From a virus: a DNA stretch of 21,798 nt. Where the stretch lies: the IMG/VR virus record IMGVR_UViG_3300042554_000746, positions 1 to 21,798 of that record; one strand, 5' to 3'. Positions 722 through 21,798 of this stretch are shown here, piece by piece. The first letter of the stretch is position 1. Each line of letters begins with the position of its first letter. The notes below the pieces were generated by a model. It was not told the DNA's origin and searched no databases. It was given only the letters and a program-made list of their open reading frames with translations. A program made the translations under genes and the position numbers.

Positions 722-3700
722 ATCCCAAGCCTCCGCCTAGCGGTGACACTGTTCTGCATTGTCTGAAATGCCAGCGCTCGTCCGCGTTCCGCTGACTCGT
801 TCATGCTCTTTCTTAGCTGATCAGCGGTTACATATTCGACGTTGTTTATTATTTGGCTTTCGTATTTGATGCTTAGCTTGCTGTTCTTTGCGTATCTATC
901 AGCAATCTGCCGATGCTGATTTGCCTGCAGTGCTTCGCGATTTTCCTTGAATGGGCTCTGACCGGCGGCTACTGCGGCTTGCAGTTTGTTGCTGGCCACA
1001 ATAGTGCCGCTCTGCCCAGGTACAAATAGCTCTGGCCCTTTTTCTCCCACGAGGTAAGTGCGCCCGTAGTCGACCGGGCCGCCAGACGCTCTGGCCTTGG
1101 GCGCGGTCATCCCGCTAATCCCGCCGGCCAGGGAGCCGATGCCTCCAAAAATGCCCGCCAGCCCCATCAGGGTGTTGTAGGTGCCGCCTTTGCCCATCTG
1201 GCTGATGCCTCCCACAATGCCCATGGCTCCCATAGCTAACCCGCCAATGCCGCCCAGCACACTGGCGAATCCCTCGTTGGCCTTACCGGCCTGATCTGGC
1301 ACCTTGTCCATCTTCTCGCCCAGGGATGCAGCCGTTTCCGACAGCGCACCCATGTCCTCGGTGGCGGTGCTCCAAACGGAAGAATCCCACACCTTTGAAG
1401 TGTCAGCCCAGTTGAAGCCACCACTGCTGGCCGGTTCAAACGAGGTGTCGATTTGGCTCATGTCGGCTGGACTTGCTGCGGCCCAATCGCCTAGGCCGGC
1501 GGCATTGGTGAACATCTGCCCACCAGTCGTCTTTGCCCAGTTAGCCATGCCCGCCGCATCAAGCGGCAACACCTCGCCGGAGCCTGGTGCGGTCGGACTG
1601 CCTGTAGCGGCTTGCAGCATTTTGTCGGCAGCAACATTCATGGTTGTGGCCGCCGAAACCATTGTGTTTCCGGCTGTTTGCTCCGGCGAATTGACTTCAC
1701 TGCCGGGCACCGATTGCTGAGCTTCTTGCTCAATCTTTTTCGGATCGAATCCGGTTAAGCCGCCGAACAGGCCCTTGGTCAGAGCCTGCTCGGCGGGCGC
1801 CATGATGAAGTTCAAGGTCGACTCGATGTATCGGTCGGCCATGCTCTCCAGCACGTCAGTCATTAGCTCTCCTAGGTCAAAGCCGCCTTCCTGCCGCGCT
1901 TTTTGAACCGCTTGGCGAACCATGCCGCCAAAACCCTCAACAAATGTCTCGGTGTATTCACCCATCAGCTTGTTCCAGGGCTGCTTTAAGAACTCCGCTG
2001 TCAGCTCATTGCGCTTGTTCTCCACCATTAACTGCCGCAGCTCTAAGGCCTGTCGCTCCTGCAGTGCCTTGGTCTGGCTCTGCAGGATTTCCGTGCTCTT
2101 TGCCTGTTGATCGGCTAATAGCTTCTCGGTTTCAGCGAGATTCGCTGTTTGGCTGTCCAGCTGCTGCGTGACATTGGCCAGATCCTGTTGGGCCAGCGTT
2201 GCTGAGTTGACCGCTGCAGCCGCAGTCGCACCACCGCTTCCCTGCCCCTGTACGCCACCTGGCTGGGCCAGGCTCTGCCTGATGGCATTCAGAGGATCGA
2301 GCAGCTTGCCAAAGCCGTCCCGTAGCTCGTAATGCAGATGGGTGTTTTGCCCGTCGTTGTAAACGGTCGCGAGACGTTGCCCAGCCGCCACAGAATCCCC
2401 GACCCGGACAGCGGGGTTCTGGATGTGGCCATATGTCCCTTGGGTGCCGTCGTCGTAGCGCACGCGCATTCCGGCCCCCATGAACCGGGCGCCGGGGCGG
2501 GTGAAGCTGGGGATGTACTGCACGACCTTGCCGGCCCGGCGGGCGTGGATCGGATCACCCGGATCTATGCCCAAGTCTTGCCCTTGGTGCCCTCTCCCAG
2601 CGCCCAGCCCGTCGTTGTACTTGGGGGCTGGGGCGGTGCCGGGCAGCATGTTGCCAACAGCCCCGCCTGCTCTGCTGCCGGCCGTTGGCGGCGAGGGTAG
2701 ACCGCCCGCAGCAGCGGCCCGCTGGTCCCGCTCGCGGTTCATGCCCTGCGTGGCCTGCTGGAAGGCCACCTTCGCCTTTAACAGTTCAACCTCATGGCGA
2801 ATGACCTTCAGCCGCTCCTGTTGGATCCGCTGCTCAGATAGCTCCCGCTGCTGTTGCACCTCCAGCGCTGCTCTCTGCGCTGCTTGCTCCATCTGCAGTG
2901 ACCGCATCCGGGCATCTGAAACCTGTTTGGTGGCATCCAAGATCGAGACGTATCCCTTCTGTCCCTGGGCCAAGGCTTCGATCTCAGCGCCGATGACACT
3001 CGATACAGAGCGGGGATCTTGGCGTGCCTGCTCTTGGGCCTCAGCCAGTCGCAGCAAGTCGCTTGCCCTTGCCTCCTCGGCCTTGGCCTGGGCCCTGAGT
3101 AGATCCAGCTCGGATTCACGGAGCCTCTGGGCCTGCTCCAGCGTCTGCAGCCGGCGTTGTTCGCTCTCCTGGATGGCCTGCAGCGCTTGCCTGGCGCCTG
3201 CCAGCGCCTTTTCCTGATTGTCCACGGCCTGATTCAGGCTGAGCATTTTCCGCTCGTAGTCGGTGAGCAGCGATTTCTGCTGCAGCTGCTCCATCGTCAT
3301 CTGGCGCTGCGTGTCCAGGGCCGACAGCTTGGTATCTAGGGTTTCACGCTCCAGCTTTCCGGTGTCTTTGATCAGCCTCTCTTCCTCAAATGAGAGCTTC
3401 GTCAGCTCTTTCATAAGTGTCAGCTGTCTTCCGCGAACATCTACCTCTCTTTTGTATTCTTCATAACGACGCTGCGCTGCACGCAGCTCAGCACCTTTGG
3501 CGATATTCAGCTTGTCCCTGGCCTCTGTCATGGCAGCAAAAGCTGCGTCCTTCTGGATTTGCAGCTCTAGCTGTTGAATCTTCAGCTGCTCCTGTTGGAT
3601 CCTCTGCTGCTTCAGTTGGATTTGTAGCTGGACTCTCTGAATATCTTTTTCTGTTTCCAGTAGCTTACCTTGTTCATCAATCCGCGCCATTTCATTGCGG

Positions 3701-5709
3701 TTCTGCACCTCGGCCAGCCTTTGCTGTGCATCTAGCTTCGTTTCGGGCGATACGGCTAGCTGCGTGGCGAAACCAATGCGCTGCTCCTGCAGCTGCCGCT
3801 TAAGGTTGTTGGCATTGTTCTGCTCTTGAACCACAGAACGCTGGGCCTGCATTAGTCGCAGGCCCAGCTCCAGCTGCTTGATCTCATTGCGGTAGGTATC
3901 CTCTTTGACCTTGGCGATGTCGCGGGCGATGGCTAGGTTGCGTTCGCCCTGACTGGCGCCCATCCGCTTGGAGCGCTCATCAAATACACGCTCTGCATTT
4001 GACGAATACTGCAGGCTCTTAAGGCTGATCTCCTGGTCGTCGCCGACCGTCTGGTTGTAACTGGAAACAGCCGTCTCGCCAGCAATCCTGATCCGCTTGC
4101 GTTCGTCATCGGTCAACGGCCCGCTCCTATTGGGCCTAGACGCCATGATCGAGTTGAGTTCCTTTTGCTCTGCCATTCGGCGAGCCATCGCCCGGCCGCC
4201 ATCGGCGAGTTTGGACAGGTTCTCGTCTAGAGCTTCGCCCATGCTGCCGAGGCCCTTGAGCACCCAGTCCAGAAACTGAATGATCGCGCTGTCTTTTGCC
4301 ATGTCAGTGGCGACGCGCAGGATTCCGCTCAGAGGCCGCAAGATTCCGCTGATGCCCTTGGCTGCCAGTTCAAATCCTTTTGCGATCACCATCAAGACTT
4401 TTCCAATGCCCTCAAGCACTGGCCCCAGCGATAGGCCAACCAGATTGGTTGCCACCGCCGCCACATCCATGATTACGGCGAGAATGCTTGAGAAGATCGA
4501 GCCGATGGAGACCAGAACCCCTCCGAGCTGACCAAGCATCTTGAGCAACGGCTCCAGAGCTTCGCTTGTGCCACGCAGCAGCATCATGAAGCTGTCCTGC
4601 AACTTGTCTAGAGGCTCTAGAACGCCTTTTAGGCCTGCCGCTAGTCCTCTCTCAAGCGCTTGACCACCTTCTGATTGGATTGTCTGCGCAACGTCTTGGA
4701 AGTTGCTCTTGACATTTTCTAGTGAGCCAGCCAGAACAGTTTGGCCGTCATAAAGTTTGTTGAGCTTATTGATCAGATCGTCATAAAACTTGCCTTGCGC
4801 TTGGAGTTGTTGAATGTCAGCTGATGAGGTATAGCCGAGCTTCTTGGCCAGCATCGAATCGGGTCCGACGTTGCCCATCATTAGGGCGTTGACCTCAGAT
4901 CTAAGCTGATACCCCGGCACCCCAAGGGTGTTCATGCCGGCCGCAATTCTGGTGCTGAGATTGCGGATCTTGCCAATGTCTTGACCCTCTTTGCCAAGAT
5001 TGCCCGCATTCTGCAAGATGATATTAAAGCCCTCGTAGATTTCGGATGCTGTTGCGCCTGAAATTTGGGCGACTTCTTTTTGGATCTTCTTGTATTCCGA
5101 TGAAATAACACCGCGCACGGCCCGCATTTGGTTCGCCGTTCCCTCTATTACCTCACCGTCTTCCCCCAGGATCGCAAAGCTGTTGGCGGTGAAGATCCCT
5201 GCTTCCGCCACCTGCTTGTTAAAGCGGCCGGCTTCTGCCGCCAGGCGCTCAAGCGGCGCCAGCATCCCTTGGATTGCTGCGGACGCCCCATTGAAAATGG
5301 CGGTCACACCTGCTACTGCAAGTCCGATCTGCCCCATGACAGGGACAAATCGAAGCGCTGTTGCCGCTAACGGGCCAAGGCTGCCCGCCATTCCCCCAAA
5401 ACTCCCACCTGCCGCGCCCGCGGCAGTGCTGGCTGCCTCAAGCCGAGACGCCAGGTTTGTGAATACATCCCCGTTGCCCCTCAGCCCTTGATTGATGGCA
5501 TCAAGGATTGTTTGGAAGCCACCAAGCCTGTTGGTCAGTTGGTCTATTTGCCGCGACGCTTCGCCGGTATCAGCATCAAACTTGACCTGGATGCCCTGCC
5601 GCTCCAGCTTGTCGGTGTAGCGCTTGAGCAGCTCCAGCTCACGGTCAAGGCTGCTGCGGTCTCCGTGAAGCCGCAGCGTGGCCGTCCCCAGGCTGTATTC
5701 GCCGGCCAT
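718..5709 (-). CDS. Tail tape measure protein with embedded M23 (LytM-type) peptidase domain
   Basis: A 1663-residue protein, the longest in the window, starting at ATG 5709, 26 bases after the tail chaperone frame. It runs inside the tail tube, sets tail length and usually helps DNA entry. The N-terminal part has hydrophobic stretches near residues 100-150 and 390-460. A very long Gln/Glu/Arg-rich coiled coil covers about residues 590-1000. A peptidase M23 domain follows: HQGQD with H1041 and D1045, YGH with H1095, and THLHYEL with H1124 and H1126. These match the HxxxD and HxH zinc ligands of lysostaphin/LytM endopeptidases. A second coiled-coil segment, a Gly/Ala/Met-rich hydrophobic tail, and the ASGGPVDYGRTYLVGEKGPELFVPG block (split here by description, about 130 residues from the C-terminus) are typical of tape measure ends. 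The M23 domain probably cuts peptidoglycan during entry. Confidence 0.96.
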   Translation of the reverse strand: MAGEYSLGTATLRLHGDRSSLDRELELLKRYTDKLERQGIQVKFDADTGEASRQIDQLTNRLGGFQTILDAINQGLRGNGDVFTNLASRLEAASTAAGAAGGSFGGMAGSLGPLAATALRFVPVMGQIGLAVAGVTAIFNGASAAIQGMLAPLERLAAEAGRFNKQVAEAGIFTANSFAILGEDGEVIEGTANQMRAVRGVISSEYKKIQKEVAQISGATASEIYEGFNIILQNAGNLGKEGQDIGKIRNLSTRIAAGMNTLGVPGYQLRSEVNALMMGNVGPDSMLAKKLGYTSSADIQQLQAQGKFYDDLINKLNKLYDGQTVLAGSLENVKSNFQDVAQTIQSEGGQALERGLAAGLKGVLEPLDKLQDSFMMLLRGTSEALEPLLKMLGQLGGVLVSIGSIFSSILAVIMDVAAVATNLVGLSLGPVLEGIGKVLMVIAKGFELAAKGISGILRPLSGILRVATDMAKDSAIIQFLDWVLKGLGSMGEALDENLSKLADGGRAMARRMAEQKELNSIMASRPNRSGPLTDDERKRIRIAGETAVSSYNQTVGDDQEISLKSLQYSSNAERVFDERSKRMGASQGERNLAIARDIAKVKEDTYRNEIKQLELGLRLMQAQRSVVQEQNNANNLKRQLQEQRIGFATQLAVSPETKLDAQQRLAEVQNRNEMARIDEQGKLLETEKDIQRVQLQIQLKQQRIQQEQLKIQQLELQIQKDAAFAAMTEARDKLNIAKGAELRAAQRRYEEYKREVDVRGRQLTLMKELTKLSFEEERLIKDTGKLERETLDTKLSALDTQRQMTMEQLQQKSLLTDYERKMLSLNQAVDNQEKALAGARQALQAIQESEQRRLQTLEQAQRLRESELDLLRAQAKAEEARASDLLRLAEAQEQARQDPRSVSSVIGAEIEALAQGQKGYVSILDATKQVSDARMRSLQMEQAAQRAALEVQQQRELSEQRIQQERLKVIRHEVELLKAKVAFQQATQGMNRERDQRAAAAGGLPSPPTAGSRAGGAVGNMLPGTAPAPKYNDGLGAGRGHQGQDLGIDPGDPIHARRAGKVVQYIPSFTRPGARFMGAGMRVRYDDGTQGTYGHIQNPAVRVGDSVAAGQRLATVYNDGQNTHLHYELRDGFGKLLDPLNAIRQSLAQPGGVQGQGSGGATAAAAVNSATLAQQDLANVTQQLDSQTANLAETEKLLADQQAKSTEILQSQTKALQERQALELRQLMVENKRNELTAEFLKQPWNKLMGEYTETFVEGFGGMVRQAVQKARQEGGFDLGELMTDVLESMADRYIESTLNFIMAPAEQALTKGLFGGLTGFDPKKIEQEAQQSVPGSEVNSPEQTAGNTMVSAATTMNVAADKMLQAATGSPTAPGSGEVLPLDAAGMANWAKTTGGQMFTNAAGLGDWAAASPADMSQIDTSFEPASSGGFNWADTSKVWDSSVWSTATEDMGALSETAASLGEKMDKVPDQAGKANEGFASVLGGIGGLAMGAMGIVGGISQMGKGGTYNTLMGLAGIFGGIGSLAGGISGMTAPKARASGGPVDYGRTYLVGEKGPELFVPGQSGTIVASNKLQAAVAAGQSPFKENREALQANQHRQIADRYAKNSKLSIKYESQIINNVEYVTADQLRKSMNESAERGRALAFQTMQNSVTARRRLGI

Positions 5710-11052: not shown

Positions 11053-11982
11053 TCAGGCCTTGTCGACGTAGGTGATGGATTTGGGGTAGTACAGGGCCAC
11101 GCCAGCAAACTTGGCCTCGGCGGGGACCATGTAGGCCAGATTCCGCTGCTGTGGAGCGTGGAACTTCAACGGCATCGGGACGTGGAACTGCAGCTTCTCT
11201 GGGCTTCGCTTGTAGATCACGATGCGCTCTTTGCTCAGTGCTCCACCACTGTTTGCCGGATCAAGCTCGTTGATCGGCATCACATCCTTGATGTAGCTGT
11301 TGGTGCGGAGGAAATACTCCAGCACAGTGGTGTCAGACACTGTGCTGCGGGGAGTGGTGCTGATCTTGCGATAAACGCTGTAGGGCACCAGCATCGTGTC
11401 CGGCTGCTCTACCTGTCGAGTGCTGTTGATCTGGTAGGTGATGCCTGCGTTGAGGATCTCCAGCATCAGATCAGGTGTCACTGAGGCGGCGTCAAACCAA
11501 CCATCACTGGCGCTCCCGCTGGCCACCACCTTGTCGACGACAGGGTGGTTGAACATGCCCTTCATGCCGGTGCCGGCCTGGCCGAACAGCGCCAGCCTGT
11601 TGGCCAGCTGTTCATAGGCCTTGCGCACCGACTCCACACGCCGCTGTTCCAGGGACACGCCGGCAAACTGGGCTTTGCGCAGCTCTTCGGTGGTGTACTT
11701 GAAGCTGCCGCCAAAACCTCGGATGGTGTTGATGATCTCGCCCCGCAGCACGTCGCTGGTCGGCAGATCATCGGCGTAGTCGGCCAGCAGGCCAAACTCA
11801 CCGACGTGATCGTAGATCTCGTACTTGTAGGTCTCGGCGCCTTCGGGCACTTCCTCGCTGACGGGAACCAGCTTGGCGTAGGGAATTTCTGCGTACTTGG
11901 TTTCCAGTACCTTCGGCAACAGGTACTCAAGCTCGCGCTCCAGGAATGCTCCAGGAGATGCGTTGTCAAGTCTAAAAGTCAT
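11053..11982 (-). CDS. Major capsid protein (DUF2184 type)
   Basis: A 309-residue protein of the right size for an HK97-fold capsid subunit without a long delta domain. Its ATG (11982) follows the cement gene stop by ten bases and has GAGG upstream. The N-terminal arm (FLERELEYLLPKVLETKYAE), the YKYEIYDHVGEF segment, the LALFG turn, RQVEQPDTMLVPYSVY and the near-C-terminal RNLAYMVPAEAKFAGVALYYPKS strand follow the layout I know from DUF2184 capsid proteins. These go with DUF2213 protease genes. It forms the icosahedral shell. Family assignment is from memory, but context supports it strongly. Confidence 0.88.
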   Translation of the reverse strand: MTFRLDNASPGAFLERELEYLLPKVLETKYAEIPYAKLVPVSEEVPEGAETYKYEIYDHVGEFGLLADYADDLPTSDVLRGEIINTIRGFGGSFKYTTEELRKAQFAGVSLEQRRVESVRKAYEQLANRLALFGQAGTGMKGMFNHPVVDKVVASGSASDGWFDAASVTPDLMLEILNAGITYQINSTRQVEQPDTMLVPYSVYRKISTTPRSTVSDTTVLEYFLRTNSYIKDVMPINELDPANSGGALSKERIVIYKRSPEKLQFHVPMPLKFHAPQQRNLAYMVPAEAKFAGVALYYPKSITYVDKA

Positions 11983-12571: not shown

Positions 12572-13906
12572 TCAGGCTCCTTTTTTGTTGGTGAGGGGTT
12601 CACGCCAGGCATTGCGCTGGGCTTCCATCATTCGCTTCCTGGCGGCGTCTTGGCCTCCGTAGGAGCTGCTGACGTGGCCCAATGCGGTCGCTAGCGGGTC
12701 GCTGTCATTTCGGCCGCTGCCAGACAGCGCAAGGGCGTCGAAAGTGGCCGCGATGTAGTCATCACTTTTGCCCTCCAGCCGATCTGGATCAACACCGGCT
12801 TCCACCAATGTGTCGAACATGATCTCTCTGTCTGTGAGACCATCAAATGTGGGGCGCTGACCAAGAATTGCAGTCGCCCGATCAAGCAGTTCAACCCTGG
12901 CTGTAACCAGCTCGTTGATGTCGAAGCCGCTGTCCAGTCGCTCATCCACCTCGGACTCCAGGCTGTCTAGGCGCTCAATCAGTGCGTCCAGACGGCCCAG
13001 GTCGCGCTCATGGGCTGCGATGGCGTCATCGCGATCAGCACAGGCCTTGTCGTACATGGCCTTAGGCACCATGCCGTCTTTCTTGGACACTTTGTAGTGG
13101 CCAAGATTTGCAGCGCCGCCTCCGTCCATCTCATCCTCTTCGTACTCGTCTTCCTCTTCGTAGTCCTCCTCTTCGTACTCTTCTTCTTCCATTTCCTCTT
13201 CTGAGCCTTCCCGTACTTCCATCGCATTCCCTTTTGCGTCGGCGCGGACTTGCGCAGACAGGGCTTCGGCGAGAGATTCGGTGGCTTTGCTAAGCGCGGC
13301 CACTGCTGTCATGGATTCCTCCGTTGTCGTTGGGTGGGTTGTGACTTCTGACGGATCGAAAGGATCAATCGCGCACGCGGCATCCATGTGCAAACGCACT
13401 TCGGGGCCCGCCCGCCCTTTGCGAACAATCGCGACGTGGTTACCGCTGATTTCGCGTTGGATGCCGTCGTATCGCTGGCCGTCAGGCGTGACTCCTGGAG
13501 TCGCGTCGAACTTCACGCGATAGCCGACCGAGACCTCTCGTGCATCACCGGTTTTGATCGCCTTAATGGCGTCAGCGTCAGTGATTGTCACCACCCCGTA
13601 TGCGAACGGAGTGCGGTACTCGACGTTGGATCCGGTATGGCCACGCTGGTATTCCCTGCAGGTCTCAGGGGTAAGCAGCTCGGGCGGATGCTCAAGCGTG
13701 ACCGGCAAATTGGCCAGCGATAGGAGGCTGTCCTTTTTGGATACCTCTTCTTCTGGCCTGTATTCGACCGCCTCCGTTCCGTCCTGCCGGCGATAACGCT
13801 GTAGGCCGGTGCGTGCAAATGTCGCCTTGATCCGTAGATACCCCTCGGGAGTTTCCTCCCAGCTGGGATCTATCGAGGCGCGGTCATAGCGGATTGCTTG
13901 ACCCAC
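12572..13906 (-). CDS. DUF2213-type prohead protease fused to scaffold-like region
   Basis: A 444-residue protein starting at GTG 13906; an in-frame stop lies just upstream. Residues 1-175 look like the DUF2213 prohead protease: IRYDRASI, LPVTLEHPP (H73), DAREVSVGYR (S126) and SGNHVAIVRKGRAGPEV (H157). H73, S126 and H157 sit as in the Ser-His-His arrangement of HK97/herpes-type assemblins; that assignment is mine. Residues 235-261 are almost all Glu, Asp and Tyr, and about 285-345 form a coiled coil. The end (TDREIMFDTLVEAGVDPDRL, SDDYIAATFDAL) is the C-terminal half usual for these proteins. The C-terminal part probably acts as internal scaffold and is cleaved off on maturation. It is the first gene after the break made by the opposite-strand regulator. 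Confidence 0.85.
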   Translation of the reverse strand: MGQAIRYDRASIDPSWEETPEGYLRIKATFARTGLQRYRRQDGTEAVEYRPEEEVSKKDSLLSLANLPVTLEHPPELLTPETCREYQRGHTGSNVEYRTPFAYGVVTITDADAIKAIKTGDAREVSVGYRVKFDATPGVTPDGQRYDGIQREISGNHVAIVRKGRAGPEVRLHMDAACAIDPFDPSEVTTHPTTTEESMTAVAALSKATESLAEALSAQVRADAKGNAMEVREGSEEEMEEEEYEEEDYEEEDEYEEDEMDGGGAANLGHYKVSKKDGMVPKAMYDKACADRDDAIAAHERDLGRLDALIERLDSLESEVDERLDSGFDINELVTARVELLDRATAILGQRPTFDGLTDREIMFDTLVEAGVDPDRLEGKSDDYIAATFDALALSGSGRNDSDPLATALGHVSSSYGGQDAARKRMMEAQRNAWREPLTNKKGA

Positions 13907-13930: not shown

Positions 13931-13960
13931 GTGACAACTACTGCGTGCATGTTCTCTAAA
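13931..13960 (+). promoter_or_regulatory. Possible promoter of the HTH gene
   Basis: GTGACA (13931-13936) matches the -35 consensus at five of six bases, and TCTAAA (13955-13960) is a modest -10, with an 18-base spacer. Transcription would start near 13967, just before the palindrome at 13973-13988 and about 40 bases before the ATG. The region is AT-richer than its surroundings. No other good pair was found by eye between 13907 and 14009, and I could not scan systematically. Confidence 0.35.
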
Positions 13961-13972
13961 ATGTCGCCAGTC

Positions 13973-13988
13973 CCGGCATTTATGCCGG
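13973..13988. promoter_or_regulatory. Perfect palindrome, candidate operator
   Basis: CCGGCAT-TT-ATGCCGG is a seven-base perfect inverted repeat with a two-base centre in the spacer before the only plus-strand gene. Neither strand has a run of T after it, so an intrinsic terminator is unlikely. It lies at the start of the presumed transcript of the XRE-type regulator, where binding would block it. Autoregulation is an inference. Confidence 0.4.
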
Positions 13989-14009
13989 TCAGTCCGTCAT
14001 TTGGGAACC

Positions 14010-14243
14010 ATGGGCGTGTTTGTTGCGCAACCTGATCGCTATGTTCGCGTTGTCTTGGGCGGCAGATTGCGCACTTTGCGCAAGCATCGCGGGCTCACCC
14101 AGGGCGACGTGGCCGAGCAGATCAGCGTCAGCCGGCAGTGGGTGTGCGACGTGGAGTGCGGTCGCACGATTCCCAATGCCGGGCGCGTGCGGGCGCTCTG
14201 TCAGCTGTTGAATTGCTCTTCTGACCTGCTGCTCGACCTCTGA
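14010..14243 (+). CDS. XRE/Cro-type helix-turn-helix regulator
   Basis: A 77-residue protein and the only gene on the plus strand. I choose ATG 14010, preceded by a weak GGGA; a TTG at 14001 is an alternative. The segment GGRLRTLRKHRGLTQGDVAEQ, ISVSRQWVCDVECGRTIPN and a C-terminal ALCQLLNC helix is a standard HTH_3 fold covering residues 17-75. It has no partner domain, so it is probably a small dimeric DNA-binding repressor or antitoxin-like regulator. Its last 43 bases overlap, tail to tail, the end of the minus-strand gene at 14201. A palindrome and a possible promoter lie in front of it. It splits the late operon and would run against readthrough from upstream. Confidence 0.85.
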   Translation: MGVFVAQPDRYVRVVLGGRLRTLRKHRGLTQGDVAEQISVSRQWVCDVECGRTIPNAGRVRALCQLLNCSSDLLLDL

Positions 14244-14545
14244 TCACCCTGCTGTTTCTTCCACAAGGCCATGGCCTTGCGGTTCAGCTCGACGCCGATG
14301 GCTGCCTCCCGGTTGACCAGATCCCAGTCGATCGGTGGTTGCCGGTCGCTTGAGTCATCCTCTTTCGGCGCTTTCATTTGCCTGTCAAGTCGGTCTTCCG
14401 ACAGGTCCAATCTAGGCGCATTCTTCCGCTGGCCCAGCTTCTCACCCTGCAGCTCCTGCTCTAGCTCGGCCGCAAGATCCCATTGACCTTGCTTGCGTGC
14501 TTTGCGGGCCTCCACCCACAGCCTGATGCGAGTTGGATGTTTCAT
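14201..14545 (-). CDS. Small hypothetical protein, last gene of the cysteine-module group
   Basis: A 114-residue, very hydrophilic, helical protein. Its ATG overlaps the kinase-like gene's stop as ATGA. The N-terminus (IRLWVEARKARKQGQWDLAAELEQELQ) looks like a short helical hairpin, the middle is basic and acidic by turns, and the end is Gln/Ser-rich. I do not recognise it. The coupling suggests that it serves together with the kinase-like protein. Its 3' end is antisense to the end of the HTH gene. It has no cysteine module. Confidence 0.65.
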   Translation of the reverse strand: MKHPTRIRLWVEARKARKQGQWDLAAELEQELQGEKLGQRKNAPRLDLSEDRLDRQMKAPKEDDSSDRQPPIDWDLVNREAAIGVELNRKAMALWKKQQGDQRSSSRSEEQFNS

Positions 14546-15828
14546 CGCTTTGCCCCTATCACTTGCTGATCAACCCACCGGCGCATTTCGCTTAGGTCGG
14601 CATCGCTGAAGATCGCATCACGGGCACGGTCCGTTGCCATTTTCATCTCTGGTGTCACCTTCGGCAATACACCGGCCTGGCGCTGGGCTTCATCATTGCT
14701 TAGCCCCTGTTTTCGCAACCTGCTCGCCTCCCGCATTCTGGGCATCCATTCATCTGGCGAGAGGTGCTCCTCCTCCCATTCAGTGTCGTATTTCCGCTGC
14801 AGGTCACCTGCGGCCCGCAATGCAGCCGTAGAGCGATCCATTCGTTCGGCAAGGCCTTCTGCCACTCTGTTGCTAGTTGAGCTGTGGCGGTTCAAGGTCT
14901 GCGTGTAGTAGTTCATCTGCAGCAGCAACCTGGCTTCCAGCTGTGCTCGTTCAGCAGCGGAGCCAGGCGCATCTTGGCCGCCAATCCCCCAGTCGATCAG
15001 CATGGGTGAACCATCGGGCTGCACCACAATGTTGGCCCCATGCACGTCGCCGTGATCAAGCCCTGCATCGGCCATCACCCGCGCAATCCGCAGCACCCCG
15101 GCGTCCAACCGTTCCCTTGCTCCAGGCTTTGCCAAGATCGCCGCGGCCTCTGGCGTGTCAGGCTCGGTTGATGTGAAGCTGTCTTTCAGCGGCGCACCTT
15201 CCACCATTCGGTAGGCAATGGCAAAACGGCCGTCAGCCGGCAGTTTCACCACCTCACCGATCGGCTCAGGGCCAACACCGAGCGCTGCCGCACGACGCAG
15301 GTTCGCCAACTCGCGATTGGCCATGTTTAACCGTTGCTGCTCACGGCTTACGTCGGGGTCTTCCTCCTGGGGGTCGCCGCCGTTCAGCCGGTCCACCTTG
15401 ACGAGCACGGGGCCTTCTGGCGTGTCCACTTTGTAGGTGTCGCCATAGTTGCCCTGGCTTAGCCGCTTAGCTGGCTTGCCATTCACCAACAGCTGGCCTT
15501 GGCTGTCCTGCCCCAGCTGCAGGCCGGATGGCGACTTTGCCTTCGCTGCTTTTTCCTGTGCCGCGGCCTCTTTTGCGGCCTCTCTTTCCCGGCGCTCCTT
15601 GGCTTCTTGAAATAGTGGGTTGAGCTGTTTCTTGGGGCTGCCCTTGCCCTTCTGGCAGGTCTTGTCTTTAGAGATCCAGCCCTGGCCGCAGGGCTGACCT
15701 TTGCCGCGGCCCGATAGATCCAGCGAGAGCTGGCCGGGTGCCTGCCGGATTCGGGCATCGAGCCGGGCAATCCGCTCACAGACGTGATCGAGCCGGTGGT
15801 CGTCCATCTGTGGGCCCTTGGCTCTCAT
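14542..15828 (-). CDS. Cysteine-module protein with protein-kinase-like domain
   Basis: A 428-residue protein; GGTGAG precedes its ATG (15828), which overlaps the previous stop as ATGA. Residues 40-60 hold the module GKGQPCGQGWISKDKTCQKG (C47, C58). A Lys/Ala/Glu-rich helix follows to about residue 98. The kinase-like part has a glycine loop LSQGNYGDTYKV (123-134), the presumed ATP lysine in VLVKV (K144), a catalytic loop HGDVHGANIV (H259, D261, N266) and IDWG (D279) in place of DFG. This resembles the APH/lipopolysaccharide-kinase branch and RIO/ABC1-like kinases more than eukaryotic Ser/Thr kinases. All key residues are present, so it may be active. The substrate is unknown: the protein could phosphorylate a host or virion target. 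A kinase inside a late structural operon is unusual. Confidence 0.85.
   Translation of the reverse strand: MRAKGPQMDDHRLDHVCERIARLDARIRQAPGQLSLDLSGRGKGQPCGQGWISKDKTCQKGKGSPKKQLNPLFQEAKERREREAAKEAAAQEKAAKAKSPSGLQLGQDSQGQLLVNGKPAKRLSQGNYGDTYKVDTPEGPVLVKVDRLNGGDPQEEDPDVSREQQRLNMANRELANLRRAAALGVGPEPIGEVVKLPADGRFAIAYRMVEGAPLKDSFTSTEPDTPEAAAILAKPGARERLDAGVLRIARVMADAGLDHGDVHGANIVVQPDGSPMLIDWGIGGQDAPGSAAERAQLEARLLLQMNYYTQTLNRHSSTSNRVAEGLAERMDRSTAALRAAGDLQRKYDTEWEEEHLSPDEWMPRMREASRLRKQGLSNDEAQRQAGVLPKVTPEMKMATDRARDAIFSDADLSEMRRWVDQQVIGAKR
15647..15705 (-). repeat. Cysteine module A, copy 1 (kinase-like gene)
   Basis: Encodes the CGQGWISKDKTCQKG region of the kinase-like protein. By hand alignment it matches 17743-17801 with five mismatches in 59 bases, and all are compatible with the same or similar protein sequence. 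A third, more diverged copy lies at 21484-21540. Confidence 0.75.
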
Positions 15829-17912
15829 CGCTCACCTCGCTCCCGCCGGATCCGCACGGCCCGGAACACGTTGTTGAGGCCCCAGATCCAGTCTCCGTAG
15901 CCAGGGTCTCTGCCGCCATCGCCTTGCTCGCGTGGCCTGCGCTCCGGTGGCCTGCGTCCTTCTTCATCCTCCCCAGCCCTTCGACGCGATACGAGTCGTC
16001 GCTGCGCTGGACTGCTGGAGCCCAGGTAAAGGCTGGCCCTCATGAAGATGATGGCGGCTTTCAGCCGTTCGTCGTCCACCCCGATTAGCTCGTTGCGGGT
16101 GATATAGCGATGGGATTCCAACGCATCCTTTTCGCTGCCGTAAACGCGGATGCCATGTTCAATGTCGTCGGTCAGTTCAGAGCGGTCAATCCCGGTCATT
16201 CGCACGATCTGGTCAGTGGCCCAGTTCAGCTCTTCTGCCGTCATCCGCTGGGCAACGGCCGCCTGGAACGAGGCCCCCGTCAGTGATTGGTCCCCATAAC
16301 GCAGCCTCTCGCTGATGTATCCCCGGTCGTTAAAGAACTCCTGATCGTTTTTCTCTGCAGTCTTCTTGAGACCCTTTGGCCTGGGCAGGCCCTCGCCCTT
16401 CGGTTCGGTCGGTTGCACTCGCGCTGGCTTTTTCTTTGGCCGCACCACCCGCGGTGTTGTGCCTTCGCCGCTGGTGCCGGAGCCCGCGGCCGCGCCCTGG
16501 CCGGCGCCCTGCGCTTGCGCTGGCTTGGCCCCGACGTATTCGCCCTCACTCATCCAAGAGCCGCCGGGATACCAGTGCCCGTCTGGCCCGTATTCGCCGC
16601 CTGGCTTGGCGCGGCGCAGCTTGACCTCCACCGATGGCTTGCGGCCGGTCTTCGCCGCCTCGGCCTTGCGACGCTCGCGCTCCGCCTTGGTCACTGCACG
16701 CTGTTCGGCGGCCTCCGCTCGCAGGGCCTTGGCTTTGGCCTTGGCTTCTGCCGGCTTGAGTGCGCCGATGCCCCTGGGCTTGACCTCGCCGCGGGCCAAC
16801 TGCTCTAGGCGGCTGATGCGCTCCTTGCTGGCCGTGGAGCGGGCCTCCTTGCGGCATTCCTTTTGCACCGAGATGCAGGCTCGGCCGCAGCCGTAGCCGG
16901 TGGAGCATTTGCGTTTGACGGCATCCAGTCGAGCCAGCACCATCGAGATGCGGTCGCTGGCATCCACCCTGCTGGCCGCCTGCAGCTTGGCCTCTGCCCG
17001 CTGCAGCCGTTTGGCCAGGTCACTGCGCTCGTACTGGATCTTGTTGGCCATGGAGGTTTTCCTCTGGCCCGTGTAGCTCCAGCCCTTCTCGCGCATCCGC
17101 TCTGCTTTCCACTGGACGTTGAGCTGGGCATATATGTCCTGCTCGCTGAGCATGGATATGCCATTGCTGTTTTCGATCTGGGCAGCGGTGGCGTCGCCCA
17201 TTCGCCATTCCCGCCTGCGGCCCCAGTCCTCTGTTCGCCACTCGCCAACGCTCACCTCTGGCCGGGGCGCCAGCTCCACCTCGCCCCAGTCGTTCTGCCA
17301 CTTCTGCTCCAGCTCATCGAGCTGGTGCTGGGCCATGCGCAGCCGGGCGACCGTGCGGGCTGTGCTTTGCAGACCCTTGAACTGCTTGCGATCAAGCGGG
17401 TCGGTGTAGCCCATCAGCTTCAGGGCTGATTCGGCGCTCACAACACGGGTCTCGCCCTGGTGCTCAACCTCAAATTGATGCACCACGTTCCGGCCGGTCT
17501 CGACGTTGGCGATGCTTTTCTCCCAGTCGGAGACGCGGCGCTCGACCACCTCACCCCGCTGGTCTTGCACCTCCGCGGTTGTCCACTGCCAGGTGTAGCC
17601 AATAAGCCTGGCGCCACTGGGCCCTGTGATCGGGTTGTCAAACGCCACCCGCTGTCTCGGCCGGCTGCGACGGGCCTCGGAGGGGGCAGACCCTGGAACG
17701 CCGGCATCAGATGAAGTCGCATTAGGGTTTGCGCCTCCGGCGCCCTTCTGGCAGGTCTTGTCCTTAGAGATCCACCCCTGACCGCAGGGTTGACCCTTGC
17801 CTCCACTGCCGCCGCCGAACAGATCCAGCTGGCCTGGGGGCGCCTTGGCCCGAGCGTCAAGTCGCTTCTCCAGTTGGAGCAACCTTTCAGAGAAGGCGAG
17901 GGTGGCCGTCAT
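15825..17912 (-). CDS. Large basic protein with two cysteine modules, function unknown
   Basis: A 695-residue protein starting one base after the previous stop (TGAGATG). Residues 38-57 carry module A (QPCGQGWISKDKTCQK; C43, C54). Residues 90-320 are a mixed-sequence region with LIGYTWQWTTAEVQ and FEVEHQGETRVVSAESALKLMGY. About residues 330-400 carry module B (C336, C342, C346, C353) and the GRACISVQKEC core, followed by an Ala/Lys/Arg-rich linker. A GPDGHWYPGGSWM turn (about residue 450) and a C-terminal helical part follow, with TAEELNWATDQIVRMTG and an Arg-rich tail. I recognise no enzyme motif. It shares module B almost exactly with the metallopeptidase-like protein just upstream. It could be a structural or injected protein. 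Confidence 0.8.
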   Translation of the reverse strand: MTATLAFSERLLQLEKRLDARAKAPPGQLDLFGGGSGGKGQPCGQGWISKDKTCQKGAGGANPNATSSDAGVPGSAPSEARRSRPRQRVAFDNPITGPSGARLIGYTWQWTTAEVQDQRGEVVERRVSDWEKSIANVETGRNVVHQFEVEHQGETRVVSAESALKLMGYTDPLDRKQFKGLQSTARTVARLRMAQHQLDELEQKWQNDWGEVELAPRPEVSVGEWRTEDWGRRREWRMGDATAAQIENSNGISMLSEQDIYAQLNVQWKAERMREKGWSYTGQRKTSMANKIQYERSDLAKRLQRAEAKLQAASRVDASDRISMVLARLDAVKRKCSTGYGCGRACISVQKECRKEARSTASKERISRLEQLARGEVKPRGIGALKPAEAKAKAKALRAEAAEQRAVTKAERERRKAEAAKTGRKPSVEVKLRRAKPGGEYGPDGHWYPGGSWMSEGEYVGAKPAQAQGAGQGAAAGSGTSGEGTTPRVVRPKKKPARVQPTEPKGEGLPRPKGLKKTAEKNDQEFFNDRGYISERLRYGDQSLTGASFQAAVAQRMTAEELNWATDQIVRMTGIDRSELTDDIEHGIRVYGSEKDALESHRYITRNELIGVDDERLKAAIIFMRASLYLGSSSPAQRRLVSRRRAGEDEEGRRPPERRPREQGDGGRDPGYGDWIWGLNNVFRAVRIRRERGER
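16857..16927 (-). repeat. Cysteine module B, copy 1
   Basis: Encodes KRKCSTGYGCGRACISVQKEC in the large basic protein. By hand alignment it matches 19741-19811 at 64 of 71 bases. The likeness goes on in protein downstream (RLEQLARGEVKPRGIGALKP against RLQQLARGEIKPKGIGAIKP), so the duplicated block is about 65-75 codons long. Confidence 0.75.
17743..17801 (-). repeat. Cysteine module A, copy 2
   Basis: Encodes CGQGWISKDKTCQKG near the N-terminus of the large basic protein. It is nearly identical at DNA level to the copy at 15647-15705 (five mismatches in 59 bases by eye). Confidence 0.75.
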
Positions 17913-17913
17913 C

Positions 17914-19866
17914 TCAGCTCAACCAGTAGACGAAGCGCCGCACCCGCTCCTCGCGTGAATCGCGCCGGGTGCCGCCGGGGAAGTCGTCCTGACGGATCTG
18001 GGCCATCAGGGCGTCAAACATCGGCTCCATCGCCTCGGCCTGCTCCCTGGTGGGCCACAACGGATCGCCAGTGGCTTGGGTGAGGTAGCTGTTCTCTCGT
18101 CCGGCCTTGGCCAGCTTCAGTTGGCAGTAGGCCTCAAATGATCGAGCGAACATCTCCTCACGCGACAGCCAGTATTGATCACTGATCAATACTCCCTGCT
18201 GCTTTAGTTCTCTAATTCTTCTGTAGACCTGCTGGGTGTAGCCGGTTGTCTCCCACGACCCGATCACCTTGAACATGGCAGCACGCTTTTCAGGGCTGCC
18301 GACGTTCTGCGTGAGGAACGATTTACCACCTGCGGCGAAGTTGTCCAGGGCGTGGCCCCATTCATGGGCCAGCGTGCCGATTCCTTTCTTGCGGGTCAGA
18401 TTGATGACCTTCATGCCGGGCTCGTAGTGAGCCATGGCCGTGCCCTTGCCACGGGCGCCGATGGCCAGACCCAGCGTGCCGTTCAGGCTGATGGCTTCAT
18501 CGGGCAACTCCAGGATGTCCGCCAGATCCACCATGGCCTCGGCAGCCTTCTGAACGTGGTGCTTGCGCTCGTCGTCCGTGACGGAGTTGCCGTACTGCAG
18601 CCCGCGGAAGCCCGATCGCTTAATGATCTGCTCAGTAGCGGCCTCAACGGAACCGCCGACGCTGCGACCGCCAACCCGCCGGGCGGGCGCCACATACAGA
18701 TCGGCCGCGCTGAAGCGCTGTTTGCCGCTGCCTTCCTTGCCGAACGCCGCGGCCAGGGTTGAGCCTTCCATGATCTTTGTGGCCGCTTCTGCCGCACGCC
18801 CCATGGATTTGGCCGGGTTCTGGCGCCAGTCCGCCCCCACGTCGGCGGCCAGGGCCTTAGCGAACGCATCCATCTGCCCATAGACACTGGTGCTGCCGCG
18901 CTTGGTCAGGCGCTTCTGCATGTCCACCAGGGCATTGGCCACTGGGTTGAACGGGTCCGCGTGGGTGCGCTGGTAACCCTGGCCTTCGGTCTTGCGATAC
19001 CGGCTGATTAGCTCGCTCAGCCGCTTGGTCAGAGCCGAGCGCATCTCACCAGCCGGCATGTCTTTGTTGGCCTCCACAAAGTCGCGAACCGACTGGAAGG
19101 CATCGAAATACTGCTTGCGTAGCGCCTTTTCATCCACCGCCTCCGTCGTGCGACCGCCATAGGTGGTTTGCCCCCGCGCTTGCCTGCGACGCTCCCCTTC
19201 GATGTAGTCCGTGACTGCCTTAGCCGTCAGGCTAGGGAAGGCCTTTAGGCAGTAGTGGCTCTCCAGCCTGGAGAGGCAGTTAGTCGGCTCAGTTCCGGTG
19301 ATCAGATCCACCGGGAAGTTCTTAAGCAGGTTGTCCCGCGTGATCAGCTTCTCGGCTTGCCCCGATGCTTCGGCCTCCTCGATCGTGCGGAAGGCGTTGC
19401 GCTTGTGCCGGGCTGAGTTGGCCAGGTCTTCACCGGCGTTCCCCACCGCTGATTTGCGAGCAAACTCGTAATCGTCGTCCTGGCTGATCGGCGTTGTTGC
19501 CGCCCTGGGCCCCTTGGCTTTGGCAGTAGCCGCCTGAGCCTTGGCGGCCTGAGCCTGCTGCCTACCACTGCGCAGCTCGGCCGCCTTGGCCCCGCGGGCT
19601 TGCGTCAGCTGCTCAGCCTTAGCCGCCGCATCGCCTGGCTTGATTGCGCCAATGCCCTTGGGTTTGATCTCCCCGCGGGCTAGCTGCTGCAGCCTGCCGA
19701 TCCGCTCTTTGCTAACGGCCGAACCAGCCTCTTTCTGGCATTCCTTCTGCACTGAGATGCAGGTGCGGCCACAGCCGTAGCCGGTGTTGCATTTGCGTTT
19801 GACGGCATCCAGCCGGGCCTCAAGTGCATCCAGTAGCGATTGACGTTGCTGGACCGCCGCGGCCAT
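17914..19866 (-). CDS. Metallopeptidase-like protein with cysteine module B
   Basis: A 650-residue protein from ATG 19866, which I prefer; the frame extends to a TTG at 19938 that would overlap the preceding gene by 38 bases. No clear Shine-Dalgarno is seen for either. N-terminal module B: C26, C32, C36, C43 in KRKCNTGYGCGRTCISVQKEC, then an Ala/Lys-rich linker with GIGAIKPGDA. A middle helical region of unknown role follows. The zinc site is LAHEWGHALDNF (HEWGH 501-505), with EEMFARSFEAY at 570-580 giving the likely third ligand, as in gluzincin-like peptidases found in large polyvalent phage proteins (LPD-type). Expected activity is proteolysis, either of host proteins after injection or during maturation. 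The substrate is unknown. HEWGH is intact. Confidence 0.85.
   Translation of the reverse strand: MAAAVQQRQSLLDALEARLDAVKRKCNTGYGCGRTCISVQKECQKEAGSAVSKERIGRLQQLARGEIKPKGIGAIKPGDAAAKAEQLTQARGAKAAELRSGRQQAQAAKAQAATAKAKGPRAATTPISQDDDYEFARKSAVGNAGEDLANSARHKRNAFRTIEEAEASGQAEKLITRDNLLKNFPVDLITGTEPTNCLSRLESHYCLKAFPSLTAKAVTDYIEGERRRQARGQTTYGGRTTEAVDEKALRKQYFDAFQSVRDFVEANKDMPAGEMRSALTKRLSELISRYRKTEGQGYQRTHADPFNPVANALVDMQKRLTKRGSTSVYGQMDAFAKALAADVGADWRQNPAKSMGRAAEAATKIMEGSTLAAAFGKEGSGKQRFSAADLYVAPARRVGGRSVGGSVEAATEQIIKRSGFRGLQYGNSVTDDERKHHVQKAAEAMVDLADILELPDEAISLNGTLGLAIGARGKGTAMAHYEPGMKVINLTRKKGIGTLAHEWGHALDNFAAGGKSFLTQNVGSPEKRAAMFKVIGSWETTGYTQQVYRRIRELKQQGVLISDQYWLSREEMFARSFEAYCQLKLAKAGRENSYLTQATGDPLWPTREQAEAMEPMFDALMAQIRQDDFPGGTRRDSREERVRRFVYWLS
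19741..19811 (-). repeat. Cysteine module B, copy 2
   Basis: Encodes KRKCNTGYGCGRTCISVQKEC at the N-terminus of the metallopeptidase-like protein. It matches 16857-16927 at 64 of 71 bases by hand alignment, more than protein conservation alone would need. This suggests recent duplication or gene conversion. Confidence 0.75.
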
Positions 19867-19900
19867 GAATGCTGCATCTATCTGAGGCAGTATTGCGCCG

Positions 19901-20230
19901 CTACAGAGACGTGGGCGCCGCAGCCCCGCGATGCGCAAGTAGCGCTTCGGTGCTGCGCTTTTCGGCTTCGGCCAGTTGCATCTGGCGGCCGATCTGAGTC
20001 GTTGGCACTGATGCGTCGATCTCCAGCAGGGTTGCGATCCACCACTGATCGTCCGGGCTGGTGGCCGCTGTCACCAGGGCCTCCGACATGTACCCAATCT
20101 GCGCTTTTGCATCTCCCTTCGCCTCGCGATGCAGCAGCTTCCACTGCAGGGCTGCAGAGCGGTCGATCGCGGGCCCGCTTGTGGCTGCCTTGATCAGACC
20201 GATCGCCTTGGACAGCAGCATCTCACTCAT
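19901..20230 (-). CDS. Small hypothetical protein
   Basis: A 109-residue helical protein. Its ATG (20230) overlaps the previous stop as ATGA. It has Ala-rich amphipathic helices (LLSKAIGLIKAATSG, ALVTAATSPDDQWWIATLLEI) and no cysteine module or catalytic motif. I do not recognise it. Being placed between two metallopeptidase-like genes, it might be a chaperone or inhibitor for them, but there is no direct evidence. Confidence 0.65.
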   Translation of the reverse strand: MSEMLLSKAIGLIKAATSGPAIDRSAALQWKLLHREAKGDAKAQIGYMSEALVTAATSPDDQWWIATLLEIDASVPTTQIGRQMQLAEAEKRSTEALLAHRGAAAPTSL

Positions 20231-21654
20231 GTGGCGTAGTTCTTGATGTGCGCGGTGGCGCCCTTGGCCTTAACCGCATTCTTGCGTGCTTTGGTCACCA
20301 TCGCGTCAACCCAGTCATGCAGCTCTCTGTTGTAACGCCTCAGGGCATCAGGCGCCGTGACGTAGGCAACAAACGACTCCGCGAATAATTCTGCCACGTT
20401 GGTGTTGGAATAGCTGGTAGGGCCTGCCGCCGTGCCGGCTGCGATCAGCCTCTCCATGGCCGGCGGCGCAATCCGCGTGCCGTTTGAGGGGTAGATGACT
20501 TGGTTGCCGTTGATCGCCACGCCCGGCTCAACGGTCCTTGAACTGTAATCGTGAATCATGTGGCCCAACTCGTGCAGATGCGTTGTAAGCGCCCGCTCAG
20601 AATCGGACAGCCCAACGGAATTGCTAAACGTAAACTCAATCCGCTTGTCGCGCACATCCAGGGTATTGCGAATACTGGCGCCCATCGCGGCCGGGTTGAC
20701 CGCATCTGGGTCCAGCCGGGCACCTGCCTGGCCAGCCACGGATGCCTTCCAGTAAATGTTGCCCATGCCCCTGTAGAGGCCGTCAGCGTCATTAGGGACA
20801 AGAACCATGGTTAGCGAATGCTTGGCAGCGCCAAGCACCTGCGTGGGGCCGTCCATATAGCTGGCGCCCACGACAGCGCTATATGCCTCGGTCACTTTCC
20901 GCAGGAGGGAAGCATCGCTGAGGTTGCCCTCTGCAGCCTTGATCATCTTCTGCAGATGACTTCTTGCATCCTTATACCACTTCATCTCGCCCTTCTGGCC
21001 CAGTGCGGTGCGCAGGGAATTGGCAAAATCCTGGCTTTCTGGTGACTTGTCACTCTCAAGAGCCTCGATCATCTCCTCAGGCCAGATGTTGAAGCGCTTA
21101 GCAAAGTTCCTGAGCAGTCCAATGCCATTTTCCTGCTCTGTTGTCCATTCGTTTAGCTGCTGCAGGTTCTCCTCAATGCTTTTGTCTGCGTTCCACACGG
21201 GCATTGGCTTGTTCAGCTGCACCACGGGCCCAAACCTGCGCTTGGGCTGAATCATCACGATCGCCCCAGCCTCATCCATAAACGCCATGGCGCTGCGAGC
21301 ATTGATGCCGGCCTCGTTGTTTTGCTCAGCGAGTTTTTGCAGGCTCAGCGCCAAGTCAGTGCCGTTATGGCGAACCGCTGGCGGGTTGAACGTCCGGCTT
21401 TCAATGCCAGAAACGATCTGCTCCATTGTCTTGGCGGAAAACGGAGCAATGGTGTCTCGTGGGTCATTGGCGTCGCCCTCGCCGATCCGGCAATTCTTGT
21501 CCCTGGAGATCCAGCCCCGTCCACACGGCTGACCGTTACCTGAGCCATCACCGAAGAGGTCCAGCTGGCCCTCTGCAGCCTTGGCTTTCCGCCTGGCGTC
21601 AAGGCGAAGCTCCAGGGCGTCAAGGCGCATCAGCAGCGGAATGATGCGGCTCAT
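20227..21654 (-). CDS. Metallopeptidase-like protein with cysteine module A
   Basis: A 475-residue protein starting at ATG 21654, which overlaps the stop of the truncated upstream gene (ATGA). The N-terminus has a short amphipathic helix (LMRLDALELRLDARRKAKA), then module A (GQPCGRGWISRDKNC; C44, C55). A helical middle region follows. The zinc motif is HLHELGHMIHDY (HELGH 361-365) and ELFAESFVAY at 422-431 gives the third ligand. The last pattern is shared with EMFARSFEAY of the other metallopeptidase-like protein, so the two catalytic parts are probably homologous though the rest differs. Fold: zincin, likely active. The substrate is unknown; a virion-borne protease is the likeliest role given the neighbours. 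Confidence 0.85.
   Translation of the reverse strand: MSRIIPLLMRLDALELRLDARRKAKAAEGQLDLFGDGSGNGQPCGRGWISRDKNCRIGEGDANDPRDTIAPFSAKTMEQIVSGIESRTFNPPAVRHNGTDLALSLQKLAEQNNEAGINARSAMAFMDEAGAIVMIQPKRRFGPVVQLNKPMPVWNADKSIEENLQQLNEWTTEQENGIGLLRNFAKRFNIWPEEMIEALESDKSPESQDFANSLRTALGQKGEMKWYKDARSHLQKMIKAAEGNLSDASLLRKVTEAYSAVVGASYMDGPTQVLGAAKHSLTMVLVPNDADGLYRGMGNIYWKASVAGQAGARLDPDAVNPAAMGASIRNTLDVRDKRIEFTFSNSVGLSDSERALTTHLHELGHMIHDYSSRTVEPGVAINGNQVIYPSNGTRIAPPAMERLIAAGTAAGPTSYSNTNVAELFAESFVAYVTAPDALRRYNRELHDWVDAMVTKARKNAVKAKGATAHIKNYAT
21484..21540 (-). repeat. Cysteine module A, copy 3 (diverged)
   Basis: Encodes CGRGWISRDKNC near the N-terminus of the first metallopeptidase-like protein. It is clearly related to the copies at 15647 and 17743 but has many more base changes, so it is older than they are. 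Confidence 0.65.
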
Positions 21655-21798
21655 GCGGCAAAAGCCTCGGTCTTGGCTGCAATCCGCAGCAGCCGCCGCA
21701 CCGCGGCGTCGAAACGATCGTCAGAGTCGAACATGCTCAGCGACTCCGCCTCCCGGCTGGTGTCGTCATCGCCCGCCGGCTTGAGGCCCAAGCGCTGC
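21651..21798 (-). CDS. C-terminus of an upstream gene, truncated by the window edge (perhaps portal)
   Basis: Forty-eight codons and a TGA stop are visible. The residues include LGLKPAGDDDTSREAESLSMF and RFDAAVRRLLRIAAKTEAFAA. The stop overlaps the next start as ATGA, so it belongs to the same operon. An acidic, Ser-rich segment followed by an amphipathic C-terminal helix is common in portal protein ends, and portal is the expected gene before a head-morphogenesis block. However, too little sequence is present to say. Confidence 0.5.
   Translation of the reverse strand, partial: QRLGLKPAGDDDTSREAESLSMFDSDDRFDAAVRRLLRIAAKTEAFAA

Follow-up and report, generated by a model that had tools for sequence, protein, structure and literature searches.

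A candidate virion cargo label with exchangeable cysteine hooks on putative injected effectors encoded beside phage head genes

Outside T4 and P1, the choice of the enzymes that phages carry in their heads is largely unknown. In T4, a common N-terminal signal, the capsid targeting sequence (CTS), stands on otherwise unrelated proteins and effectors (IPI, IPII, IPIII and Alt), is recognised in the prohead and is processed by the prohead protease (PMC9026906). Here we analyse a viral contig of 21.8 kb (IMG/VR record IMGVR_UViG_3300042554_000746; "the window" below is this whole stretch), which encodes a tape measure protein, a DUF2213 head protease, a PF09950 capsid protein and four genes whose products likewise carry a short cysteine module, the hook, on unrelated bodies. 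We propose, with a confidence a little better than even, that such hook proteins would be effectors taken into the prohead and delivered to the host along with the DNA, each with an exchangeable front label; that the hook label as such marks virion cargo seems to us rather probable.

As with Alt, which is an ADP-ribosyltransferase (ART), one family of hook-bearing bodies matches the Alt-like RNA polymerase ARTs, a classic type of injected effector. The two signals nevertheless differ: the T4 CTS has about 10 residues and a gp21 site of the LxE type, whereas the hook label is a helix plus cysteine hook of 25-70 aa which comes in three versions, with an R-x-D-A motif and a clamp peptide. We saw no sequence relation between them, and the (L/I)xE-type gp21 site is not the common motif. 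The T4 CTS proteins are internal to the head, a location that is putative for the hook proteins. By analogy, we regard the hooks as a new cargo label on known types of injected effector, CTS-like in its working and outside the T4 family.

The polyvalent proteins of Iyer et al. 2017 (PMC5512222) have the same bodies (LPD1 and other zincins, kinases, ART and ParB-like domains), a modular layout and a portal-terminase context; from that repertoire we met LPD1 (gene 3) and a kinase (gene 1) in the window, and ART, zincin and DnaJ domains in its relatives. The word "cysteine" does not occur in the main text of that paper, which mentions no cysteine module, and the accessible parts of it hold no shared label, R-x-D-A or clamp motif; as described in those parts, polyvalent proteins are unlike the hook cargo, often short single enzymes with a common label. 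The original prediction for this window knew of no named system with this layout, which stands for the label but not for the bodies, since LPD1 zincin, kinase and ART are established domains of polyvalent proteins. The Dar system of phage P1 (DarA, Hdf; PMC12810830) comprises internal anti-restriction proteins; the part of the source at hand describes no exchangeable shared module, and there DarA binds the inner face of the capsid through large domains, unlike the hook label.

Fusion of toxins or enzymes to MuF (SPP1 gp7 / Mu F) is an alternative way of bringing effector domains into the head. The hook proteins differ from such fusions in having no MuF domain: a Pfam scan gave no MuF-family match for the window genes, and L007, L041, L050 and other loci encode MuF in a gene of its own. 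Among the bodies, the gene-4-type zincin and others have matches in PHROGs for head morphogenesis and the portal, several of them covering parts of the portal family (positions 1000-1330 of 1362), of head morphogenesis or of minor head proteins. The same domains are thus fused to head proteins in other phages, which suggests that fusion to a head protein and a hook may be alternative routes into the head.

The label and the bodies behind it

The four genes lie on the minus strand at 14542-21654, and both cysteine modules claimed for them are present: module A, CGxGWISxDKxC, and module B, C-x5-CGxxCIS-x4-C. Most modules are at or near the N-terminus, as originally described, but gene 2 also carries an internal module B. 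The pattern CG..[WC]IS..K.C has five matches in the four proteins and none in 20,000 residue shuffles of them, and all six cysteines of gene 2, like both of gene 4, fall inside modules. A third hook (C-type) reads CxxPDGxxYGTxGxC. The conserved unit is larger than the cysteine motif: a helix ending in RLDA precedes modules A and B, followed in module A by PGQLxL..., a Gly-rich linker and the hook, while module B forms a unit of about 204 nt (68 aa) whose window copies are 78% identical in DNA. A predicted model of module B (mean predicted local distance difference test score, pLDDT, 78) consists of a helix, a beta hairpin and two helices, and has no significant structural match by Foldseek. 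The hook has no curated-family or solved-structure match in Pfam, NCBIfam or PDB, and the reading of it as a piece of a known larger domain was rejected; its sole family matches are PHROG 33618 (unknown function) and PHROG 16619 (minor head protein).

Hooks of the three types are found on more than 100 proteins of some 80 viral contigs and in the cyanophages PaV-LD, CL131 and S-CBWM1, the cultured relatives of hooks being mainly cyanophages. Module A, B and C searches of viral contigs gave 6, 65 and 18 loci, respectively, with some overlap; the first count was 107 distinct hook proteins, a few of them chance matches to the loose pattern, and a search with an alignment in which two rows had been slightly edited (A6) gave one locus only. 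In cultured phages, tblastn gave no match for the short module A or for the whole of gene 1, and did give matches for modules B and C. PaV-LD has six hook proteins (ORF061, 065, 078, 079, 080, 081), CL131 four (gp044, gp045, gp047 and gp048) and S-CBWM1 six, which include kinases of the RIO, ChoK and APH types and one NMNAT. Four of S-CBWM1 (gp106, gp113, gp161 and gp162; L014, L099) begin directly with a four-cysteine hook, and three of these are annotated as different kinase types. There were 71 stretches in viral contigs, against none genuine in one scan of 84,980 prokaryote genomes, the lone match there being rejected since no hook-bearing frame was found on reading.

Zincins, kinases, Alt-like ART, NMNAT, DnaJ and lipase-like domains are found among the bodies. 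A single hook type stands before zincins (LPD1, M90/ATLF-like), kinases and bodies with DnaJ or lipase-like domains, and a second one before ART, NMNAT and kinase-like bodies. Clustering of the bodies places kinases behind module A (n=4) and module B (n=4), gene-4-type zincins behind A (n=2) and B (n=6), and ARTs behind B (n=3) and the C hook (n=3), other bodies also being shared by B and C. Relatives have hook proteins of several units (L006, L036, CL131 gp048); in the window, a single body is recognised in each of genes 1, 3 and 4. Some loci may be described here in their own right. In L016 (5410-13776), on a 118-kb phage contig, five C-hook genes follow one another (ART, NMNAT, an APH-like kinase and two unknowns). 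L006 4433-6058 has two C hooks and a C-terminal half that resembles RelA/SpoT on inspection by eye and has matches among the head-morphogenesis PHROGs. Hook proteins of L007 (6887-8389) and L097 (7144-11790) bear a DnaJ domain, and may recruit host DnaK.

In most B loci, the hook genes are flanked either by portal and MuF or by MuF and DUF2213-MCP (MCP, major capsid protein), and the orders TerL-portal-HOOK-MuF and HOOK-DUF2213-MCP recur. The expectation that unrelated enzymes encoded next to the portal would bear the module at their N-termini is thereby borne out, as is the broader claim of exchangeable modules on unrelated bodies beside head genes, found in phages only at the sensitivity of our scans; neither a known larger domain nor random occurrence in non-phage genes was found. 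Exchange, head-gene context and phage restriction fit a packaging or sorting tag for what would be injected effectors. Beyond this, the third hook, a link of R-x-D-A to capsid, portal and protease, and a beta-clamp motif are additions of the present analysis.

R[hydrophobic]DA occurs in 89 of 100 hook proteins and 13 of 15 DUF2213 proteins against 31 of 589 other open reading frames (ORFs), and in none of the TerL, MuF and tape measure proteins of the same set. It precedes 38 of the 42 internal B hooks, in 29 of them by exactly 4 residues. R-x-D stands at the MCP N-terminus in nearly every relative examined, including the hookless S-CBS4, and at most portal N-termini; all R-x-D-A sites of PaV-LD (8/8) and most of those of CL131 (8/10) are in portal, MCP, protease or hook proteins (p ~0.001 each). 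The motif may, with somewhat less than an even chance, be a signal for procapsid recognition or for processing by the DUF2213 protease. As a processing site it would explain why hooks recur at borders in long proteins, these being then polyproteins. In a comparable way, gp21 sites mark the T4 internal proteins, and Pro sites mark the P1 MCP and DarA (PMC9026906, PMC12810830). A likeness of the effector helix to the DUF2213 coiled coil (RLDALIERLDSLE) was also considered; it is real in 5 of 13 DUF2213 proteins and variable elsewhere, and is kept as a lead only.

Module A contains a further peptide, Q[LM]xL(F / xL) or a near variant (QMGLDF, QMGFDF, QLGLDF), in every RLDA-type copy of the window's group. 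Gene 1 and its relatives have the hexapeptide form (QLSLDL, QLALGL, QLELGL, the QLxLGL forms matching Pol IV QLVLGL), genes 2 and 4 the pentapeptide QLDLF, and clamp binders typically alternate in this way at a given site. QLDLF agrees exactly with the beta-clamp consensus of the literature, QL[S/D]LF (PMC9690074, PMC3716654). Known beta-clamp motifs are usually C-terminal on replication and repair enzymes, whereas here the motif is N-terminal on kinases and peptidases (PMC9690074, PMC3716654, PMC4549789). In the predicted model of gene 4 this segment is disordered. No clamp-type motif was found in modules B and C. That the module-A peptide binds the host beta sliding clamp is a tentative suggestion, and less likely than not. 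A separate family of short proteins (L108-L118), starting RLDAPGRACGQGFISAGKTC (RLDAPGRACG), has a two-cysteine hook without clamp motif and a conserved cysteine-rich C-terminus (PLCLSRAKWKCSGK).

The label would thus have as parts the R-x-D-A helix, the cysteine hairpin hook in three versions and, in module A only, a disordered linker with the clamp peptide. It would bring the effector into the prohead, where the DUF2213 protease would cut at or near R-x-D-A and would also separate the units of multi-effector polyproteins, leaving the hook at the front of every mature effector; closed by disulfides, the hook could form a compact docking knob in the particle, and after injection module-A effectors might dock on the host beta clamp. 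The fullest version, a three-part label (protease site, disulfide hook, clamp peptide) that loads cyanophage heads with single enzymes or with effector polyproteins cut by the protease and, after injection, tethers these effectors to the host replisome, the hook versions being alternative docking keys, we consider rather unlikely. For CL131, 23 virion proteins have been detected by liquid chromatography-tandem mass spectrometry (PMC6293099), and the hook proteins are known here from their genes. A recognisable label would allow injected effectors to be read from cyanophage genomes, whose genes are mostly unannotated, and it might be tried as a means of bringing reporter proteins into cyanophage particles. 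Were R-x-D-A a head-protease site, one could predict which virion proteins are processed; a working clamp peptide would be a new way of directing injected enzymes to the host replisome.

Several observations weigh against this reading. There is no hook in the stretch of S-CBS4 examined, although this is the closest cultured relative by its capsid protein, nor in Mic1 ORF3, a virion protein beside the portal, so that the label is not general. R-x-D-A is missing from the S-CBWM1 hooks and from PaV-LD ORF080/081, and CL131's own DUF2213 protein lacks R[x]DA. The clamp-type motif is present in 15 of 20 module-A proteins and 18 of 958 others, but the RLDA-type modules are homologous and these counts are not independent. 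Finally, a small lipoprotein of bacterial type (L010 9797-10075) has the same C-x5-CGxxCIS-x4-C spacing outside a head context.

Chemistry of the hook and alternative explanations

Hook windows were scored without their cysteine columns. All four cysteines were present in 107 of them and C2 and C4 only in five, and shuffles gave 0 matches; the other patterns comprise PaV-LD hooks in which C1 is displaced by 1-2 residues, and a single frame that seems to be frameshifted. There is no loss of C1 without C3 or the reverse; both are gone, and C2 and C4 retained, in module A (which has Trp at C3), CL131 gp048, L093 and L040. Such paired loss fits C1-C3 and C2-C4 disulfides better than a four-cysteine metal site, and the hook is probably closed by these two bonds; of the redox or metal-binding handle proposed at the outset, it is therefore the metal site that fares less well. 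Outside the hooks, cysteine makes up 0.23% of hook proteins against about 0.6-1.2% of most neighbouring head proteins, and the tape measure protein, itself ejected, has none.

The four invariant cysteines of module B and the small beta-hairpin of its predicted model would also be expected if the hooks were metal-binding (Zn or Fe-S) mini-domains offering a nucleic-acid- or protein-binding surface, their proximity to head genes being incidental. We think this unlikely, since the paired loss is what two disulfides predict and comparison with Pfam, NCBIfam and PDB brought up no metal-site family; nor is C-x5-C-x3-C-x6-C, to our knowledge, a usual Zn spacing.

We give as little weight to the idea that the label acts in the infected cell, as a sorting or tethering signal on late-expressed host-takeover enzymes (module A leading to the replisome via the beta clamp). 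The clamp-type peptide is indeed invariant in the RLDA-type module A of the window's group, and its disorder in the model is as expected of a binding peptide; however, modules B and C serve the same bodies without it, the hook genes belong to the head operon, and R-x-D-A is common to MCP, portal and protease.

Modules could also be recombination cassettes for shuffling effector domains, with no dedicated molecular function, as the occurrence of the same bodies behind different hooks might suggest, together with a module-B unit of about 290 aa which is present inside the polyvalent protein of L006 and absent at the same point from the window frame 21651-21798. Yet the hook copies are 76-84% identical in DNA while their protein motif is nearly unchanged, which argues for selection on the protein, and the cysteine spacing is kept in distantly related phages; this makes the cassette explanation quite improbable. 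Recent gene conversion between modules was considered separately, and is not supported by DNA so diverged. Lastly, that hooks do nothing but keep apart the domains of multidomain polyvalent proteins, as inert spacers, is hardly credible: many are internal, at domain borders, but others stand at the very N-terminus of single-domain S-CBWM1 kinases, many single-hook proteins carry theirs within about 60 residues of the ORF start, and the conservation is far above the needs of a spacer.

Layout of the window

The features of the window are collected in Table 1.

Table 1. Positions of the hook genes, their label parts and the nearby head genes in the window
Feature	Position	Strand	Remarks
Major capsid protein	11053..11982	-	Pfam PF09950; N-terminus MTFRLDNASPG
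DUF2213 prohead protease/scaffold	12572..13906	-	Pfam PF09979, PHROG 530 head maturation protease; RADA + RLDALIERLDSLE
Gene 1	14542..15828	-	428 aa; module A + APH/RIO-type kinase body; Pfam APH 28.2 bits (cut-off 23.2)
Module A hook CGQGWISKDKTC, gene 1	15655..15690	-	sequence motif
Beta-clamp-type hexapeptide QLSLDL, gene 1	15715..15732	-	sequence motif
Gene 2	15825..17912	-	695 aa: module A, body, module B, second body
Internal module B hook CSTGYGCGRACISVQKEC, gene 2	16854..16907	-	residues 336-353; repeat unit ~16732-16935
Module A hook, gene 2	17751..17786	-	sequence motif
Beta-clamp-type pentapeptide QLDLF, gene 2	17817..17831	-	sequence motif
RLDA helix RLLQLEKRLDAR, gene 2	17850..17885	-	sequence
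Gene 3	17914..19866	-	module B + LPD1 zincin; HEWGH 18352-18366
Module B hook CNTGYGCGRTCISVQKEC, gene 3	19738..19791	-	repeat unit ~19616-19819
Hookless small gene	19901..20230	-	109 aa; kept beside hook genes; homologues in L006, L035
Gene 4	20227..21654	-	module A + zincin body; HELGH 20560-20574, ELFAESF 20371-20391
Module A hook CGRGWISRDKNC, gene 4	21490..21525	-	sequence motif
Beta-clamp-type pentapeptide QLDLF, gene 4	21553..21567	-	segment modelled as disordered
Partial frame, C-terminus of a further polyvalent protein	21651..21798	-	contains DRFDAAVRRLL; match to L006

The gene 1 kinase has the motifs HGDVHGAN and LIDWG, and thus the catalytic HxD...N and D[WF]G, while its RIO1 score is below the RIO1 cut-off of Pfam. 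In gene 2 no known domain was found, and PHROG 33618 is matched at its module B. Gene 3 scores 52.3 bits for Pfam LPD1 (PF18796; cut-off 27) and has the zincin motif HEWGH; it probably starts at ATG 19866 and not at TTG 19938, its hook being then about 26 residues from the start. In the family alignment of gene 4 (A8), H361, E362, H365 and NxxE..AE are invariant, and its relatives match M90/ATLF, M90 above the cut-off; its predicted model has a low mean pLDDT (56.5) and no Foldseek match at E<=0.001. The partial frame at the end of the window is not the portal itself; it matches the C-terminus of the hook-bearing polyvalent protein of L006. The best cultured match of the window capsid protein is that of the cyanophage S-CBS4 (51% identity).

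Two minor observations concern the neighbouring genes. Between the cargo genes and DUF2213, on the opposite strand, lies a small regulator of the XRE/helix-turn-helix type (13935-14243, +), and more than 20 related loci have a homologue that is placed and oriented alike; S-CBS4 gp021 and CL131 gp037 are annotated regulators just before a head gene. The tape measure gene (718-5709) contains an M23-like peptidase stretch, HQGQDLGIDPG...HLHYE, recognised by eye.

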